NCBI RefSeq assembly: GCF_001006045.1 | Contig: NZ_CP011267.1 | Coordinates: 1,302,001-1,366,000, forward strand | DNA: 64,000 nucleotides | Direction: 5' to 3' | DNA from: Geoglobus ahangari | GTDB taxonomy: Archaea > Halobacteriota > Archaeoglobi > Archaeoglobales > Archaeoglobaceae | Shown: positions 4,181 to 54,588 of the stretch, in pieces | Numbering within the stretch: the first letter of the stretch is position 1 | Layout: the number at the start of each line of letters is the position of its first letter | Translations under genes and position numbers: made by a program | Notes under the pieces: generated by a model | Seen by the model: the letters and a program-made list of their open reading frames with translations, nothing else | What the model was told of the DNA's origin: nothing | Database searches by the model: none

Positions 4181-5239
4181 TCACGACTGAACACAAGTTT
4201 CAGCATACAATCTCTCCTTCAGCTTCAGAGCGACATTTACTAAGCTTATAAGCACGGGAACCTCGATTAATGGGCCAATCACTGTTGCGAAAGCCTGGTT
4301 GCTGTGAATTCCCCACATGGCAACAGCAACAGCTATGGCAAGCTCAAAGTCGTTGCTTGCTGCGGTAAAAGACACTGCTGTGGTTTTCGGGTAGTCAACT
4401 CCGAGTTTGTAAGCTATGAAGAACGTTGCGAACCACATGATGAGGAAGTAAAGTGTTAGCGGGACTGCAACCCTCATAACCTGGAGCGGAAGCTCCACTA
4501 TGTACTCTCCCTTGAGCGAGAACATCACGATGATTGTGAAGAGTAAAGCTGCTGGAGTGAGTAGGCTTAATTTTGGAGCGAGAACGTTTTCGAACCAATC
4601 TTTGCCCTTCAGCCTGAAACTCACGTACCTTGTAACTACTCCTGCGATGAAAGGTATGCCCAAGTATATGAACACGGTCTTTGCAGCCTCAGCAATGCTG
4701 ACATCCGCCTCAACACCCGTAACAAGTCCAAGCCAGTTCAGGGCGATGGTTATGAAGACATATATGTAAACCGCGTAGAAGAGAATCTGAAATATGGCGT
4801 TGAAGGCTACAAGCCCTACAGCAAGCTCTCTGTCTCCCTCAGCCAGCTCGTTCCAAACTATGACCATCGCTATGCATCTTGCCAGTCCAACGAGTATAAC
4901 ACCCATCATGAACTCCGGTAGGTCTCTCAGCAAGGTTATGGCGAGCAGAAACATCACCACCGGTCCCACAATCCAGTTCTGGACGAGGGAGAAGGCCAGG
5001 AGCTTTAGGTTCCGGAAAATCTTTCCCATCTCTTCATACTTCACCTTCGCGAGAGGCGGGTACATCATCAGAATCAGGCCAATGGCTATGGGAATCGATG
5101 TGGTGCCTACGCTAAGAGAACTTATGATGTCGGCTATTTCAGGATAGACGTAGCCAAGAGCTATCCCACTTATGATTGCCAAGAATATCCAGAGTGTCAG
5201 GTATTTCTCCATGGTCGACAGCTTTCTCCCTCCACTCAC
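4181..5239 (-). CDS. acr3: ACR3-family arsenite efflux transporter
   Basis: 352 residues with about ten hydrophobic segments (bile acid:sodium symporter/ACR3 fold). ACR3 hallmarks are visible: [12 protein letters not shown] after TM2, [10 protein letters not shown] in TM3, and the cysteine in [15 protein letters not shown] that is required for As(III) transport in characterised ACR3 proteins. It acts in the cytoplasmic membrane, exporting arsenite (possibly antimonite) with the proton gradient. The GTG start overlaps the TGA of the upstream AbrB gene (GTGA) and has AGAGGTG 9 nt before it, so the two are translationally coupled. No arsenate reductase or ArsR is nearby. Confidence 0.92.
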
Positions 5240-45411: not shown

Positions 45412-46032
45412 ATGGATTTCAGGAGCATAATTCCCAAGATGCACGGTGCCACCTCGATATGGCTTGCCGCTATGGTGCTGTCCCTTCCGGAGCTGTCCCC
45501 GCTCGAGTTCCTCGCATCGCTTTCTGTCTTCTTTGCCGTGGCTGCGGGGCACAACGTCATCTTCAAGGGCAAGGCCGACAGGTGGGACTATCTGGTTCTG
45601 TCAGTTGCATCCGCGCTCATATCCTTCACCGCCTTGCAAAATCCCGTGATCTTCCTATACTCCATACCGCTCCTGCTGTCAGTCGCGTTCAGGAAAGACT
45701 TCAGGAAGTACGTGATATTCTCCTCCCTGCTGACTACCATCCCCGCCTCGTACATCTCCAGCGAGGTCGCGTTTCTGCTCTTCGTCTCCTTCTCATTTGC
45801 GGGGGTGCTGCTGGCCGACTCCTTCATATACTCCGACCGCAGAACCGGGGTTGTGGGCATAGTCCAGTATGCGCTCATATCCTTTCTGACCGCTAAGGTG
45901 ATGGTGGTGATGACCTCCCTGCTGATCCTTCCATTCCTCGTGAAAATGAGGCTAAAGACCCTTGGCCTCTATCTGCTCTTCTGCGTTCTCGCCTACTCAC
46001 TTTCGCTGCTTTTAATTATTTATCATGTATAA
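45412..46032 (+). CDS. Integral membrane protein, possibly YwiC-like
   Basis: 206 residues with seven to eight hydrophobic segments. The start RSIIPKMHGATSIWLAAMVL resembles the P-x-H-G-A-W opening of YwiC-like membrane proteins, but I cannot confirm the family. It precedes cooS by 67 bp, which contain a separate TATA element, so common transcription is not certain. Function unknown. Confidence 0.55.
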   Translation: MDFRSIIPKMHGATSIWLAAMVLSLPELSPLEFLASLSVFFAVAAGHNVIFKGKADRWDYLVLSVASALISFTALQNPVIFLYSIPLLLSVAFRKDFRKYVIFSSLLTTIPASYISSEVAFLLFVSFSFAGVLLADSFIYSDRRTGVVGIVQYALISFLTAKVMVVMTSLLILPFLVKMRLKTLGLYLLFCVLAYSLSLLLIIYHV

Positions 46033-46033
46033 T

Positions 46034-46062
46034 CTATATTTTTGGTGACCTAATCTTTTAGG
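46034..46062 (+). promoter_or_regulatory. Promoter and leader hairpin of the CODH-like gene
   Basis: CTATATTTTT (46034-46043) is the TATA candidate. CCTAA-TCTT-TTAGG (46049-46062) is a 5-bp hairpin near the predicted transcription start. The leader to the ATG at 46100 would be about 35-40 nt with AGGA close to the ATG. Confidence 0.35.
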
Positions 46063-46099
46063 GAAAACCATGATATGAACTGCCATTCTCGTCAGGAAC

Positions 46100-47971
46100 A
46101 TGAAACTGGAAGGAAAGGTTAGCCAGCACGAAAGCGTGCAGAGGATGTACGAGATCGTTTCTGGACAGGGCGTTTCGAACGTCATAGACAGGTTCAACGC
46201 GCAGGAGAAGGGAAGGTGCCCCTACTGCACACAGGGTCTGAGCTGTCAGCTCTGCAGCATGGGGCCGTGCAGAATTGGCCCGGGCAAGGAGTACGGAGCC
46301 TGTGGGATTGATGCGGCTGGAATGGTCACGAGGAACTTCGTCCACCTGAACATGCTTGGAACGGAGGCGTACACCTATCACGCGATTGAGGCCGCGAAAA
46401 CACTCAAGGCGACGGCCGAGGGCAAGACTCCATACGAGATAAAGGATGTTGAGAAGCTGAAGTGGTTCGCTCAGCAGCTCGGAATTGAAGGCGAGGACGT
46501 GAAGGAGCTCGCGATAAAGGTGGCGGACTTCGTTATAGCCGACCTGAGCTCACACGAGCCCAGCAAGATAGTGCTTGCCTTCACTCCGGAGAAGAGGAGG
46601 GAGGTATGGGAGAAGCTCGGCCTGATACCCAACGGAGTGTTCCAGGAGCTTCTGACAGTCGGCAGCTCGTCGATGACGAACGTTGACTCCAACTACGTGT
46701 CCCTTGCGATGAAGAGCATGAGGATGGGGATCGTAACCTGCCTCGGCGCGCAGCTCGTCATAGAGACGATTCAGGACATCCTGTTCGGCACACCGATGCC
46801 CCATGAGGCCTATGCAGACTTCGGCGTTGTTGATCCTGAGTACGTGAACATAGCAGTCAACGGCCACGAGCCCTTCGTCGGCATGGCCCTCATAAAGCTG
46901 GCCGAGAGGGAGGACATTCAGGAGAGGGCAAGGCAGGCCGGAGCCAAGGGCCTCAGAATCGTCGGGTTCATCGAGACAGGACAGGAGATCCTCCAGAGGG
47001 TCTCGAGCCCTGTCTTTGTAGGACTTGTAGGCAACTGGATAGTTCAGGAGTACGTGCTGGCGATGGGAGGGATCGACATCTTTGCTGCTGACATGAACTG
47101 CACCCTCCCGAGCCTCCCACTCTACCAGAAGTACGGTGTCAAGATCGTGCCTGTCAGCAAGCTCGTCAGGTTAAGGGGAATCAACGAGGGACTCGACTAC
47201 GAGCCGGAGAAGGCAGAGGAGATCGCGATGAAACTCATTAACATGGCCATAGAGAACTTCAAGGAGAGGAAGAAGAACGTCGAGCCGATAAGGGTCGAGA
47301 ACAAGAAGAAGATCACCGTCGGCTTCTCACCCGAAGCGATCCTAAAGGCCCTGAACAACGACCTGAACGTGCTGTTCGACGCGCTGAAGAGCGGCAGCAT
47401 CAAGGGAATCGCAGCGCTCGTCAGCTGCACCACCCTCAAGAACGGCCCGCACGACACGCACTCGGTCACAATAGCCAAGGAGCTGATCAAGAGGGACATA
47501 CTCGTCCTCTCGATGGGTTGCGGAAACGCGGCGATGCAGCAGGCTGGCTTGACGAGCATGGAGGCAGTTGACCTTGCGGGAGAGAACCTGAAGCAGGTCT
47601 GCAAGGCCCTCGGAATTCCGCCTGTGCTGAGCTTCGGAACCTGCACCGACACTGGAAGAGCAGCGTACCTGCTCAAGGTGATTGCCGAGGCTCTTGGAGT
47701 TGACATTCCCGATTTGCCGGTAGTTGCAACGGCTCCGGAGTACATGGAGCAGAAGGCCACAATCGACGCGATATTCGCAGTTGCCTACGGCCTGACCGTG
47801 CACGTCTCTCCGATACCGCCGATAACCGGCAGCGAGGATGCGGTCAGGCTCTTCACCGAGGACGTGGAGGAGCTCACGGGCGGTAAGGTGATGGTCGAGG
47901 AGGATCCGGTTAAGGCGGCTGAGAAGCTGGAGCAGGTCATCATCGAGAAGAGGAAGAAGCTCGGACTCTAA
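46100..47971 (+). CDS. cooS: CO dehydrogenase catalytic subunit homologue with Cys-to-Glu C-cluster change
   Basis: 623 residues, full CooS length. C40 and C43 (CPYC) suit a [2Fe-2S]-type D-cluster. C49, C52, C57 and C68 form the B-cluster pattern. The C-cluster ligands H256, C334, C443, C474 and C515 are present, with almost the same spacing as in Carboxydothermus CODH-II. The remaining ligand, Cys295 in the usual GICCTGNE, is replaced: here it reads GFIETGQE, giving E292. Classic Ni,Fe C-clusters need that cysteine. A Glu ligand recalls hybrid-cluster proteins and the CODH-V subgroup, which reduces hydroxylamine. No CooF, CooC or Cdh genes are nearby. It is therefore probably not a standard CO oxidiser. 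Confidence 0.9.
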   Translation: MKLEGKVSQHESVQRMYEIVSGQGVSNVIDRFNAQEKGRCPYCTQGLSCQLCSMGPCRIGPGKEYGACGIDAAGMVTRNFVHLNMLGTEAYTYHAIEAAKTLKATAEGKTPYEIKDVEKLKWFAQQLGIEGEDVKELAIKVADFVIADLSSHEPSKIVLAFTPEKRREVWEKLGLIPNGVFQELLTVGSSSMTNVDSNYVSLAMKSMRMGIVTCLGAQLVIETIQDILFGTPMPHEAYADFGVVDPEYVNIAVNGHEPFVGMALIKLAEREDIQERARQAGAKGLRIVGFIETGQEILQRVSSPVFVGLVGNWIVQEYVLAMGGIDIFAADMNCTLPSLPLYQKYGVKIVPVSKLVRLRGINEGLDYEPEKAEEIAMKLINMAIENFKERKKNVEPIRVENKKKITVGFSPEAILKALNNDLNVLFDALKSGSIKGIAALVSCTTLKNGPHDTHSVTIAKELIKRDILVLSMGCGNAAMQQAGLTSMEAVDLAGENLKQVCKALGIPPVLSFGTCTDTGRAAYLLKVIAEALGVDIPDLPVVATAPEYMEQKATIDAIFAVAYGLTVHVSPIPPITGSEDAVRLFTEDVEELTGGKVMVEEDPVKAAEKLEQVIIEKRKKLGL

Positions 47972-49487: not shown

Positions 49488-49762
49488 CGCTCATACTCCT
49501 TACGAACACATTTTTAAAATTTGGGGACTTGGCTGGAAGGAGCATGCACAACAGAAATTTTCCACTTCCGAAATGTCATGTGACTCTGTTCTTTCCTTTC
49601 TCCTCTTACGACCCCAGTTTCAGGAGGTTCGCGATTTCCACATGAAGCGAAGGTGGGGGTGGGTGTTTGGGAGAGGGCATAGTTCACAACCTCGTGAATT
49701 TTCGAAAGGTATTTAAGACAAAAATCCTGATTTTTCGTTGAAAATAAGGGGGAGGGTTGCCC
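49488..49762. other. Intergenic region between divergent asparagine-synthase-like and mutase genes
   Basis: About 275 bp with no convincing gene. It holds the minus-strand promoter (AAATTTTAAAAAT near 49503-49515) and the plus-strand mutase promoter TATTTAAG (49710-49717), with a leader ending in GGGGGAGGG (49748-49756). In the middle is TTCGC-N14-GCGAA (49628-49651), an imperfect palindrome, and a G-rich run (49650-49680). No function can be assigned to these. Confidence 0.5.
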
Positions 49763-50179
49763 ATGGAGAAGAAAATCAGAGTTCTTGTCGCGAAACCGGG
49801 TTTGGACGGTCACGATCGCGGTGCAAAGGTTATTGCGAGGGCGCTGAGGGACGCGGGTTTTGAGGTGATATACACGGGCATAAGGAGGACACCTGCCGAA
49901 ATCGCCGAAACCGCCCTGCAGGAGGACGTGGATGTCGTTGGTCTGAGCATTCTGAGCGGTGCTCACCTCGAACTCGTCCCGCTGATCATGGACGAGCTCA
50001 GAAAGAGGGGGCTCGAGCCCAACAGAGATCTGATAGTCATCGTGGGTGGGATAATTCCGCCCGAGGACATTCCCAAGCTGAAGGAGATGGGCGTGGCTGA
50101 GGTTTTCGTCCCCGGAACGCCCATGTACGAGATTATCGATTTCATAAAGAATAGCGTCGGTGAGAAGGTGGTAGCATGA
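49763..50179 (+). CDS. mcmA2: Methylmalonyl-CoA mutase, cobalamin-binding subunit
   Basis: 138 residues. The B12-binding motif is intact: [23 protein letters not shown] (DxHxxG, partly quoted), [14 protein letters not shown] (the S-x-L region) and GGIIPPEDI (the GG motif). It binds adenosylcobalamin base-off with the histidine as lower ligand and partners the 548-residue subunit encoded four genes downstream. ATG 49763 follows GGGGGAGGG. First gene of the operon. Confidence 0.95.
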
Positions 50180-50571
50180 TGAAGAAGATCGATCATATTG
50201 GTATAGCGGTTAAGAGCCTGGATGAGGCCGTTGAGCTCTACAAGAAGCTCGGATTTGAGGTTAAGGAGATCGAGGAGGTAGAGGAGCAGAAGGTGAAGGT
50301 GGCAATGCTGCCCGTTGGCGAGAGCAAGATCGAGCTCCTTGAAGCAACATCACCTGAAAGCGCGATCGCCAAGTTCATTGAGAAGAGGGGAGAGGGGATA
50401 CACCACATTGCCGTGAACGTGGAGAACATTGAGGAGGCTCTTGAGAATGCCAAGAAGAATGGCCTTCAGCTGATTGACGAGAAGCCGAGGATCGGTGCGG
50501 GTGGAAAGAAGGTGGCCTTCATCCACCCCAAGAGCACCAAGGGTGTTCTGCTGGAGTTCGTGGAGGGATAG
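50176..50571 (+). CDS. mce: Methylmalonyl-CoA epimerase
   Basis: 131 residues of the vicinal oxygen chelate fold: [64 protein letters not shown] and a C-terminal LLEFVEG. Metal ligands are the histidines of IDHIGIAV and IHHIAVNV and the glutamates of IELLE and LLEFVE. It interconverts (S)- and (R)-methylmalonyl-CoA, linking the carboxylase to the mutase. The start overlaps the preceding stop. Confidence 0.95.
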
Positions 50572-50573
50572 CC

Positions 50574-52124
50574 TTGAGGAAGGAGCTTCTCGACGAACTC
50601 TACAGGAGGAAGGAGAAGATAAAGCAGATGGGCGGGGAGGAGAGGATAAAGAAGCAGCACGATGCGGGAAAGCTGACTGCGAGAGAGAGGATCGAGCTCC
50701 TCCTCGACCCCGGAAGCTTCGTCGAGATAAACCCGTTTGTTGAGAAGAGGAACACGGACTTTGGCCTCGACAAGGTCGAGCTTCCGGCCGATGGTGTTGT
50801 TACCGGCTACGGAACCATAGACGGGAGACCGATCGCGGTTTTTGCTCAGGATTTCACGGTGATGGGCGGCAGCCTCGGAGAGATGCACGGCTACAAGATC
50901 GCCTACCTCCTCGACTTTGCAATGAAGGTCGGAATCCCGGTGATCGGGCTTAACGACTCCGGTGGTGCGAGGATTCAGGAGGGTGTTGACGCGCTGAAGG
51001 GCTATGGAGACATCTTCTACAGGAACACGCTCGCAAGCGGTGTTATACCGCAGATCAGCGTCATTCTCGGCCCGTGTGCCGGTGGAGCGGTCTACAGCCC
51101 GGCCATTGGAGATTTCATAGTGATGACCAAGAACAAGGGCTGCTACATGTTCATAACCGGGCCGAACGTCATAAAGACCGTGACGGGTGAGGAAGTCACT
51201 CCTCAGGAGCTTGGAGGCTGGGAAGCTCACGCGATGAAGAGCGGAAACGCCCACCTTGTCGCTGAGGATGATGAGTCTGCGATGAGGCTTGTAAGAAAGC
51301 TCATCAGCTTTTTACCGCTGAACAACCTTGAGGATCCCCCGCAGGTTGATACTGGCGATAACCCGGCGAGGACGACGCCCGAGATCTACGACATCATCCC
51401 GGACGACCCCAACAAGCCCTACGATGTCAGGGATGTGATAAGAGCGGTTGTCGACAATGGAGATTTCTTCGAGATACACGAGTACTTCGCACCCAACGCC
51501 GTTGTCGGCTTCGCGAGGATGGATGGGAGGACAGTGGGAATAGTGGCAAACAACCCCAAGTTCTATGCCGGAACGCTTGACGTGAACAGCAGCGATAAGA
51601 TTGCGAGGTTCGTCAGGTTCTGCGACGCGTTCAACATCCCCGTCCTGACATTCGTTGACGTGCCCGGCTACCTGCCGGGAGTGCAGCAGGAGTATGGAGG
51701 GATCATAAGGCACGGGGCCAAGGTTCTGTACGCTTACAGCGAGGCCACAGTTCCGCTCGTCACGATAATCCTGAGGAAGGCCTACGGAGGAGCTTACCTC
51801 GCCATGGGGAGCAAGCACCTTGGCGCTGACGTGGTCTACGCCTACCCAACGGCAGAGATAGCCGTGATGGGGCCGGAAGGAGCGGCGGAGATCGTCTTCA
51901 GGAAGGAGATTGCCAAGGCTGACGATCCGGAGAAGGTCAGGCAGGAGAAGATACAGGAGTACAGGGAGAGGTTCGCCAACCCGTACAGGGCGGCGGCGAG
52001 GGGATACATAGACGACGTTATCGACCCCAAGTTCACGAGGGTCAAGGTGATCTCTGCCCTCAGAGTTCTCGAGACGAAGAGGGAGAAGCTCCCACCGAAG
52101 AAGCACGGGAACATACCCCTGTGA
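50574..52124 (+). CDS. pccB: Propionyl-CoA carboxylase / methylmalonyl-CoA decarboxylase carboxyltransferase subunit
   Basis: 516 residues, family length. [25 protein letters not shown] near the start, the oxyanion-hole stretches [15 protein letters not shown] and [20 protein letters not shown] (partly quoted), and in the C-terminal crotonase domain [24 protein letters not shown]. It moves the carboxyl group between carboxybiotin and propionyl-CoA. The TTG start at 50574 is the best fit: it directly follows the epimerase stop and GGAGGGATAG. No biotin carboxylase or decarboxylase membrane subunit is in the window. Confidence 0.94.
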
Positions 52125-52133
52125 GGTGGTATT

Positions 52134-52271
52134 ATGGGTCTGAATCCAGACGAGTTTGTTGCGGCCGTGATGGCGATCCACAAGTACCTCGAGGAGCACT
52201 CGGAGAAGCCCATCGAGATAAAGAGAGACCTCAGCTACTGGAAGATCGTCTCGAGGGTGCCGGGGTGGTAG
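52134..52271 (+). CDS. Small carboxylase-associated subunit (45 aa)
   Basis: ATG 52134 to TAG 52271, preceded by GAGGTGGT. The sequence is NPDEFVAAVMAIHKYLEEH, then WKIVSRVPGW at the end. The helix plus C-terminal tryptophans recall the tiny epsilon/delta subunits (AccE, MmdD-like) of biotin-dependent acyl-CoA carboxylases that glue the core complex. Located between the carboxyltransferase and the biotin carrier, with 1 bp to the next ATG. The family link is suggestive only; the gene itself is well supported. Confidence 0.7.
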   Translation: MGLNPDEFVAAVMAIHKYLEEHSEKPIEIKRDLSYWKIVSRVPGW

Positions 52272-52272
52272 A

Positions 52273-52929
52273 ATGGTCAGGTACTCCGTCATAGTCAACG
52301 GCAAGAGGTTCGATGTTGAGGTGGAGGAGCTTTCCTCCAACAGATTTAAGGTCGTTGTGAACGGGAAGGAAGAGGAGATAGAGCTTTTCGAGGAGAGGAG
52401 AGCTGTAGAGGCCAAGGAAAAGGTCGAAGCGCCAGTCTCCGCAGGAAAGGCCGAGGGTGGAGAGGTCAAGGCGGAGATGTCCGGCAGCGTTGTGAGGATC
52501 CTCGTGAAAGAGGGCGAGGCGGTGAAGAAGGGGCAGCCCGTTCTGATCCTCGAGGCAATGAAGATGGAGAATGAGGTCGTCTCTCCAGCTGATGGAATCG
52601 TGGAGAGCATTGAGGTGAGGGAGGGAGACAAGGTTCAGGCTGGAGACGTGCTGATCAGGATAAGGGCCGAAGGTGGAGGCTCACCAGCCGAGAAGCCCAA
52701 GGCGGTTGAGGGTGACGGAACGCAGGTCAAGGCTGAGATGGCGGGAACGATCGTCAGGATCGTCAAGAAGGAGGGCGAGGCCGTAAAGTCCGGAGAGGCG
52801 GTCGTGATCCTCGAGGCGATGAAGATGGAGAACGAGATCTCCTCGCCGGTGGACGGTGTGGTTTCTAAGGTTTACGTCAAGGAGGGTGATAAGGTTCAGG
52901 CCGGAGACGTTCTGTTCTCCGTGTCTTGA
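52273..52929 (+). CDS. Biotin carboxyl carrier protein with two tandem biotinyl domains
   Basis: 218 residues. An N-terminal beta region (1-45, YSVIVNGKRFDVEVEEL) and a Glu/Lys-rich linker precede biotinyl domain 1 (about 64-136), then a second linker and biotinyl domain 2 (about 150-218). Each domain ends a strand with EAMKMEN; the predicted biotinylated lysines are K97 and K184. Carriers in this family normally have one domain. It shuttles CO2 between the biotin carboxylase and PccB. It starts 1 bp after the small subunit stop. Confidence 0.93.
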   Translation: MVRYSVIVNGKRFDVEVEELSSNRFKVVVNGKEEEIELFEERRAVEAKEKVEAPVSAGKAEGGEVKAEMSGSVVRILVKEGEAVKKGQPVLILEAMKMENEVVSPADGIVESIEVREGDKVQAGDVLIRIRAEGGGSPAEKPKAVEGDGTQVKAEMAGTIVRIVKKEGEAVKSGEAVVILEAMKMENEISSPVDGVVSKVYVKEGDKVQAGDVLFSVS

Positions 52930-52941
52930 GGAGGTGTTTTT

Positions 52942-54588
52942 ATGAACAAGAGAGAGTGGGAGGAGAAGTACGTAAAGCCCCTGCTTGAGAAGGCTCCCGA
53001 AAGGAAGAGGGAGTTCAAGACGGCAAGCGGCTTTGTTGTTGACAGGCTCTACACTCCCGAGGACGTTCAGGTGGATTATGATTCAAAGCTCGGGTATCCG
53101 GGCGTGTACCCGTTCACGAGGGGAGTCTATCCAACAATGTACCGAGGAAGACTCTGGACGATGAGGCAGTACGCCGGCTTCGGAACTGCCGAGGAAACTA
53201 ACAAAAGGTACAAGTTCTTGCTCGAGCAGGGACAGACCGGTCTCAGCGTCGCGTTCGATCTACCAACCCAGATTGGCTACGACTCCGATCACCCCATGGC
53301 CCTCGGAGAGGTAGGGAAGGTCGGAGTTGCGATAGACACCATAGAGGACATGCAGATCCTCTTCGACGGAATCCCACTCGACAAGGTGTCAACATCAATG
53401 ACAATCAACTCCACCGCCGCGCAGATCTTGAGCATGTATGTTGCCGTTGCTGAGTCGCAGGGGGTTGACAGGAAGGTTCTCAGGGGGACGGTGCAGAACG
53501 ACATGCTGAAGGAGTACATCGCGAGGGGAACCTACATCTTCCCTCCAGAGCCGAGCCTGAGGCTCGCGACGGACATAATCATGTTCTGCGCCAAGGAGAT
53601 CCCCAAGTGGAACTCGATAAGCATTTCAGGTTACCACATGGAGGAAGCTGGAGCAACCCCGGTTCAGGAGGTCGCCTTCACTCTTGCAGACGGAATAGAG
53701 TACGTGCAGAGGGTCATCGACAGGGGGATGAACGTTGACGAGTTCGCTCCGAGACTCAGCTTCTTCTTCGCCGCAGGGAACAACCTCCTTGAGGAGGTGG
53801 CGAAGTTCAGGGCTGCAAGGAGGCTCTGGGCAAGGATAATGAAAGAGAGGTTCGGGGCGAAGAACCCGAGGTCCATGATGCTCAGGTTCCACGTTCAGAC
53901 GGCGGGCTGCACCCTCACGGCCCAGCAGCCGGAGAACAACATAATCAGGGTCACCCTTCAGGCTCTCGCGGCAGTCCTTGGTGGTACGCAGAGCCTGCAC
54001 ACAAACAGCTACGACGAGGCCCTAAGCCTGCCGACCGAGAAGGCCGTTAGAATCGCCCTCAGGACGCAGCAGATCATCGCGGAGGAGAGCGGTGTGGCTG
54101 ACGTCATAGACCCGCTTGGCGGAGCGTACTACGTTGAGTGGCTCACCGACAGGATAGAGGAGGAGGCGATGAAGTATATCGAGAAGATCGACGAGATGGG
54201 AGGAGTGATAAGGGCGATCGAGAGCGGATACATCCAGAGGGAGATACAGAGATCTGCGTACGAGAAGCAGAAGGCTATTGACGAGGGCGAGCTTGTGGTG
54301 GTCGGTGTCAACAAGTACAGGATAGAGGAGGAGCTCAACGTCGAGATCCTCAGGATCGATCAGGAGATGGTCAGGAAGCAGATAGAGAGGCTCAAGAGGT
54401 TCAGGGAGAGCAGGGACAGGAGCAAGGTTGAACAAGCTCTCGAGAGGCTCAAGAAGGCTGCAGAGAACCCGGACGAGAACCTAATGCCGTACATCCTCGA
54501 GGCGGTGAAGGCTAAGGCGACGCTGGGCGAGATGACCGATGCGCTGAGAGAGGTCTTTGGAGAGTACAGAGCTCCGCAAATCTTTTAA
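52942..54588 (+). CDS. mcmA1: Methylmalonyl-CoA mutase, large (catalytic) subunit
   Basis: 548 residues forming the TIM barrel. [35 protein letters not shown] includes the substrate tyrosine region (quoted here only as landmark [20 protein letters not shown]); then [32 protein letters not shown] and [19 protein letters not shown]. It rearranges (R)-methylmalonyl-CoA to succinyl-CoA with adenosylcobalamin bound by McmA2. The repair GTPase MeaB is not in the window. ATG 52942 follows GAGGAGGTG. Confidence 0.96.

Follow-up and report, generated by a model that had tools for sequence, protein, structure and literature searches.

A CooS-V-type homologue of carbon monoxide dehydrogenase in Geoglobus ahangari belongs to structural group D-1

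The archaeon Geoglobus ahangari encodes a homologue of anaerobic carbon monoxide dehydrogenase (CODH) in which a glutamate, Glu292, stands in place of a cysteine ligand of the active-site C-cluster. A preliminary description of this DNA had singled out the substitution; it is already known as the mark of structural group D-1, published in 2019 (PMC6344411), and the Geoglobus protein is a member of that subgroup, not a lone oddity. That the protein is no CO oxidiser and carries a cluster like that of hybrid-cluster proteins (HCPs) is well supported by its likeness to CooS-V of Carboxydothermus hydrogenoformans. Its substrate and physiological role, for which the gene neighbourhoods of relatives serve as the guide, are uncertain.

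Cluster ligands and class assignment

The gene is an intact open reading frame. Its features are given below, with positions in the window, by which we mean the whole 64-kb stretch of DNA analysed.

46100..47971, + strand: CooS-V-type (clade D, structural group D-1) CODH homologue, 623 aa, intact open reading frame
46217..46228, + strand: D-cluster motif C40-x2-C43, with the spacing of the [2Fe-2S] D-cluster of CooS-V (PMC9311411)
46244..46303, + strand: B-cluster motif C49-x2-C52-x4-C57-x10-C68
46865..46867, + strand: codon of His256, a cluster ligand equivalent to H259 of CooS-V
46973..46975, + strand: codon of Glu292, at the place of Cys295 of CODH-II and equivalent to Glu295 of CooS-V (PMC9311411)
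47747..47749, + strand: codon of Glu550, the second hybrid-cluster glutamate, equivalent to E556 of CooS-V (PMC9311411)

Against the NCBI model for the anaerobic CODH catalytic subunit the 623-residue protein scores 896 bits (cut-off 478). The nearest solved structure is CooS-V (phmmer E 2e-204), followed by Thermococcus AM4 CODH (6e-132), and identity to CooS-V (PDB 7b7q) is 51% across 618 aligned residues. Structural modelling, which the preliminary description had proposed as a check, gave an AlphaFold2 model (pLDDT 93.1, pTM 0.93) whose best PDB match is again CooS-V (TM 0.98, rmsd 1.1-1.3 Å), with a less close fit to true CODHs (TM 0.95, rmsd about 1.6 Å).

Alignment to 7b7q pairs the ligands of the two proteins residue by residue. 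C40/C43 of the D-cluster correspond to C38/C41 of CooS-V and C49/C52/C57/C68 of the B-cluster to C47/C50/C55/C68, while at the active site H256 corresponds to H259, E292 to E295, N333 to N337, C334 to C338, C443 to C449, C474 to C480, C515 to C521, E550 to E556, and K552 to K558. The motif around Glu292 reads VGFIETGQE, as opposed to (G)MCCTGNE in true CODHs. Thus the preliminary description was right to the residue about the exchange at Cys295, as this alignment and one of 45 sequences show, and the other C-cluster ligands (H256, C334, C443, C474, and C515) and CX2C D-cluster cysteines that it listed each match a ligand of CooS-V. Another cysteine filling the site, named there as grounds for giving up the claim, was looked for in residue alignments with relatives and CODHs, and none is there. 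The protein therefore departs from the ligand set of Ni,Fe-CODHs, which comprises five cysteines and one histidine and includes Cys295. Glutamate occupies the site in 80/80 loci, which are the best 80 of 377 relatives drawn from 84,980 species genomes and so are biased to close kin, and E292, H256, C334, C443, C474, C515, E550, and K552 are invariant in the 45-sequence alignment; this conservation rules out chance or sequencing error. One D-1 homologue, from Candidatus Alkanophagales (L048:8001-9848), keeps the glutamate and has type II D-cluster spacing (C-x7-CC, with glycine at the Cys41 position); in its subclade the Glu and Cys41 exchanges are correlated (PMC9311411).

Group D-1 of clade D was defined by a type III D-cluster, replacement of the first C-cluster cysteine by glutamate, replacement of the acid-base histidine by tyrosine, and a retained lysine with a glutamate two residues ahead of it; its active-site residues are the same as those of HCPs (Inoue 2019, PMC6344411). 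The Geoglobus protein has the type III spacing Cys-x2-Cys-x5-Cys (C40-x2-C43-x5-C49), the glutamate with the histidine and the other cysteines kept (H256, E292, C334, C443, C474, and C515), and Y93, K552, and E550 at the remaining positions.

Phylogeny agrees with this assignment. In a maximum-likelihood tree built by a quick method, from a sample that leaves out groups D-2, D-3, and D-4 as well as L014, the protein falls with Geoglobus and Archaeoglobus proteins inside a group that contains CooS-V (SH-aLRT 99) and excludes the Cys-bearing CODHs of the sample (clade E, clade C-like). The phylogenetic placement suggested in the preliminary description thus sets the protein apart from Cys-type CODHs, and the kinship with the CODH-V subgroup drawn there is upheld by the tree, by the 51% identity, and by the sharing of all ligands. 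A protein 81% identical and with the same ligands appears to be AF1849, the clade D CooS of Archaeoglobus fulgidus. Ni,Fe-CODHs of clades E and F (CODH-II, Desulfovibrio vulgaris CODH, and Thermococcus AM4 CODH) have the fold and most ligands in common with the Geoglobus protein, and two clade E enzymes are 36-39% identical to it, but aligned clade E enzymes have cysteine at position 292 and lack a counterpart of E550, whereas the Geoglobus protein has both glutamates.

Gene neighbourhoods in Geoglobus and its relatives

A motif search of all open frames of 60 aa or more across the window found neither a CooC-type P-loop nor a CooF-type C-x2-C-x2-C-x3-C motif, and the sole other PF03063 member of the G. 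ahangari genome, CdhA, lies about 389 kb off. The gene therefore stands alone, without CooF, CooC, or Cdh partners, as the preliminary description had it; 64% of clade D genes stand alone (PMC13056359). Two features lie immediately upstream.

45412..46032, + strand: membrane protein without a Pfam family, ending 67 bp upstream of the CODH gene and kept in two other Geoglobus genomes (L039 and L040)
46033..46099, + strand: AT-rich gap, a candidate archaeal promoter site by inspection

Co-transcription of the membrane-protein gene with the CODH gene is possible. Downstream, a YkgJ-like gene and an asparagine-synthase-like gene recur in two other Geoglobus genomes. A conserved operon was considered and rejected, the recurrence being limited to the upstream membrane protein and these two downstream genes in two Geoglobus genomes. 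Further along the window, positions 49757-54588 hold genes for a B12-binding subunit, an epimerase-like glyoxalase, a carboxyltransferase, a double biotinyl-domain protein, and a mutase, which probably form a propionyl/methylmalonyl-CoA cluster; the biotin protein has two tandem biotinyl domains. The likely AF1849 locus differs from that of Geoglobus in having an MBL-fold gene and then a cysteine-rich HdrD-like gene downstream, together with a divergent HTH_10 gene; the Geoglobus locus is without all three. In the likely A. fulgidus sequence (L173, about 4220-4960, - strand) this HTH_10 gene, divergent from cooS, is spread across three frames by two frameshifts, and is either a pseudogene or a record of old sequencing errors.

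The neighbourhoods of D-1 genes in relatives are richer. In eight loci (L082, L084, L085, L089, L091, L092, L098, and L106) the CooS-V gene is preceded, on its own strand, by rubrerythrin and flavodiiron protein genes, and in most a gene for the catalytic chain of ferredoxin-thioredoxin reductase (FTR) lies in between, giving the order rubrerythrin, flavodiiron protein, FTR, CooS-V in the Methanosarcinales/ANME-2 lineage. These FprA-linked loci form a single lineage and so amount effectively to one event; enrichment p-values for families near D-1 genes ignore kinship. A dicluster ferredoxin lies near the D-1 gene in eleven loci from several phyla, and regulators adjoin others: HTH_10 in nine loci of Archaeoglobales and kin, V4R in eight loci of Thermoplasmata and kin, and Crp/Fnr in five bacterial loci. 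An equation of this dicluster ferredoxin with the FrdX of hcp-frdX operons was considered and set aside, the neighbours of three true HCP genes giving no more than weak ferredoxin matches. In G. ahangari a homologue of the dicluster ferredoxin (L174:2212-2919, - strand, genome positions 590711-591418) is divided between two adjoining genes, and its domains have changed places. A true HCP gene (L144) is adjoined by the same Crp/Fnr family as the D-1 loci (24-34% identity).

One bacterial locus with a neighbouring Crp/Fnr gene, L067, has a perfect palindrome, TTGACTTAAGTCAA (TTGAC-N4-GTCAA), 145 bp ahead of its CooS-V gene, and TTGAC-N4-GTCAA is the published FNR-type HcpR consensus (PMC1274295). 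HcpR-type sites as a general upstream feature of D-1 genes were rejected, this being the only perfect palindrome; a few imperfect CRP-type palindromes, counted without multiple-test correction, occur upstream of D-1 genes with a Crp/Fnr gene.

Together, the gene neighbourhoods of relatives point to redox or nitrosative stress, though short of proof. The stress-gene neighbours of the relatives are absent at the G. ahangari locus, which counts against a stress role there.

Relation to hybrid-cluster proteins

The preliminary description was also correct in likening the protein to HCPs, the ligand set being HCP-like and including E292 and E550, as in CooS-V. HCPs have the same set of active-site residues as reported for D-1 (PMC6344411), but the Geoglobus protein is only a weak match to their profile (43.1 bits against TIGR01703, curated cut-off 360.8) and, unlike an HCP, is of CODH type in sequence, length, and phylogeny. 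No protein in the 57 Archaeoglobales genomes exceeds the HCP cut-off, and outside the order 3 of 43 D-1 carriers have one that does. D-1 proteins may thus be the only hybrid-cluster proteins of Archaeoglobales. We also considered D-1 as a general replacement for HCP and rejected it, since presence of the two is independent across 149 Methanosarcinia genomes (35/68 vs 49/81, p = 0.32; for three of the 68 the match has 45% identity and may not be D-1), so that D-1 proteins are no general stand-in for HCPs.

Proposed function and its alternatives

CooS-V (PDB 7b7q, 7b7t, 7b95, 7b97, and 7b9a) has D-, B-, and active-site ligands identical to those of the Geoglobus protein and the same fold; unlike CooS-V, the Geoglobus protein, known here from sequence and model, belongs to a hyperthermophilic archaeon that reduces Fe(III). 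Crystals of CooS-V contain a Ni-free [4Fe-3S-nO] hybrid cluster ([4Fe-3S] / [4Fe-2S-S*-2O-2(H2O)]), whose ligands include Glu295 and Glu556 and whose structure changes reversibly upon oxidation and reduction, with a bridging [2Fe-2S] D-cluster (PMC9311411). CO oxidation, CO2 reduction, and NO reduction were all undetected, and hydroxylamine reduction was very slow (kcat 0.13 s-1, kcat/KM 20 M-1 s-1; PMC9311411).

We consider it likely that the Geoglobus protein is a CODH-fold protein with a Ni-free hybrid cluster that converts neither CO nor CO2, and that its most probable activity is that of a low-potential reductase whose substrate is a small reactive nitrogen or oxygen species. On the pattern of the CooS-V crystal structures, the hybrid cluster should be of the same type. 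The protein would form a homodimer, with a Ni-free Fe/S/O hybrid cluster held by H256, E292, C334, C443, C474, C515, and E550, and electrons would reach the active site through the bridging [2Fe-2S] D-cluster (C40/C43) and the [4Fe-4S] B-clusters (C49/C52/C57/C68). CO and CO2 would be left unconverted, and the likely substrate class, small reactive nitrogen or oxygen species, would make it a stress or detoxification enzyme.

The CODH fold, the retention of K552, a lysine like that of true CODHs, and genetics in Methanosarcina acetivorans that hints at a possible CO role for D-1 (Inoue 2019, PMC6344411) could be taken to mean that the protein is a functional Ni,Fe-CODH, which tolerates glutamate for one cysteine and oxidises CO beside CdhA. 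We regard this as very improbable: CooS-V, with the identical ligand set, lacks both Ni and CO activity, CODH-II carrying the C295E exchange is Ni-deficient and shows no activity (PMC9311411), Tyr93 occupies the place of the acid-base histidine, the motif search of the window found neither CooC nor CooF nearby, and cooS of A. fulgidus (AF1849) shows no induction by CO (PMC4543118). The suggestion in the preliminary description that the protein is not a CO oxidiser is therefore supported by homology to Ni-free, CO-inactive CooS-V. Its second suggestion, of a nitrogen-oxide or hydroxylamine enzyme, is plausible and fares less evenly. Slow hydroxylamine reduction by CooS-V speaks for it, but the rate is below even that of a true CODH and NO reduction went undetected (PMC9311411), so that a nitrogen-oxide role is to be read as a hypothesis and not as a known activity. 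A dedicated hydroxylamine reductase, which the HCP-like ligand set and the measurable activity of CooS-V would allow, is improbable on the same kinetics, since the kcat/KM of 20 M-1 s-1 compares with 450 for Rhodospirillum rubrum CODH and lies about two orders of magnitude under that of HCPs (PMC9311411).

Unlikely, if somewhat less so, is a redox or nitrosative sensor or an electron store without enzyme activity, in which the morphing cluster would signal redox state to a neighbouring regulator. The reversible rearrangement and very slow turnover of CooS-V (PMC9311411), the HTH_10, V4R, or Crp/Fnr genes that often adjoin D-1 genes, and the redox sensing proposed for clade D (PMC13056359) are consistent with it. 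The link to regulators is positional, however, and the HTH_10 homologue of G. ahangari lies about 272 kb from the CODH gene; moreover, the substrate channel of CooS-V opens only in the reduced state (PMC9311411), which suggests a reductase.

The presence of a CODH gene is often taken as a sign of CO metabolism, and the Geoglobus gene, which passes the standard CODH model, very probably encodes a protein without CO activity. Annotation of Archaeoglobi and surveys of CO metabolism therefore need a check of Glu292; the gene is ordinary in kind and useful as an annotation correction. The neighbourhoods of relatives (the flavodiiron/rubrerythrin/FTR operon, adjacent regulators, and dicluster ferredoxin) offer testable hints to the role of the CooS-V group. 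A wider reading is possible but somewhat doubtful: CooS-V-type proteins might constitute a stress-defence family that works beside flavodiiron proteins, rubrerythrins, and dedicated regulators, and in the HCP-less Archaeoglobales might, as the sole hybrid-cluster enzyme, carry out an HCP-type function.
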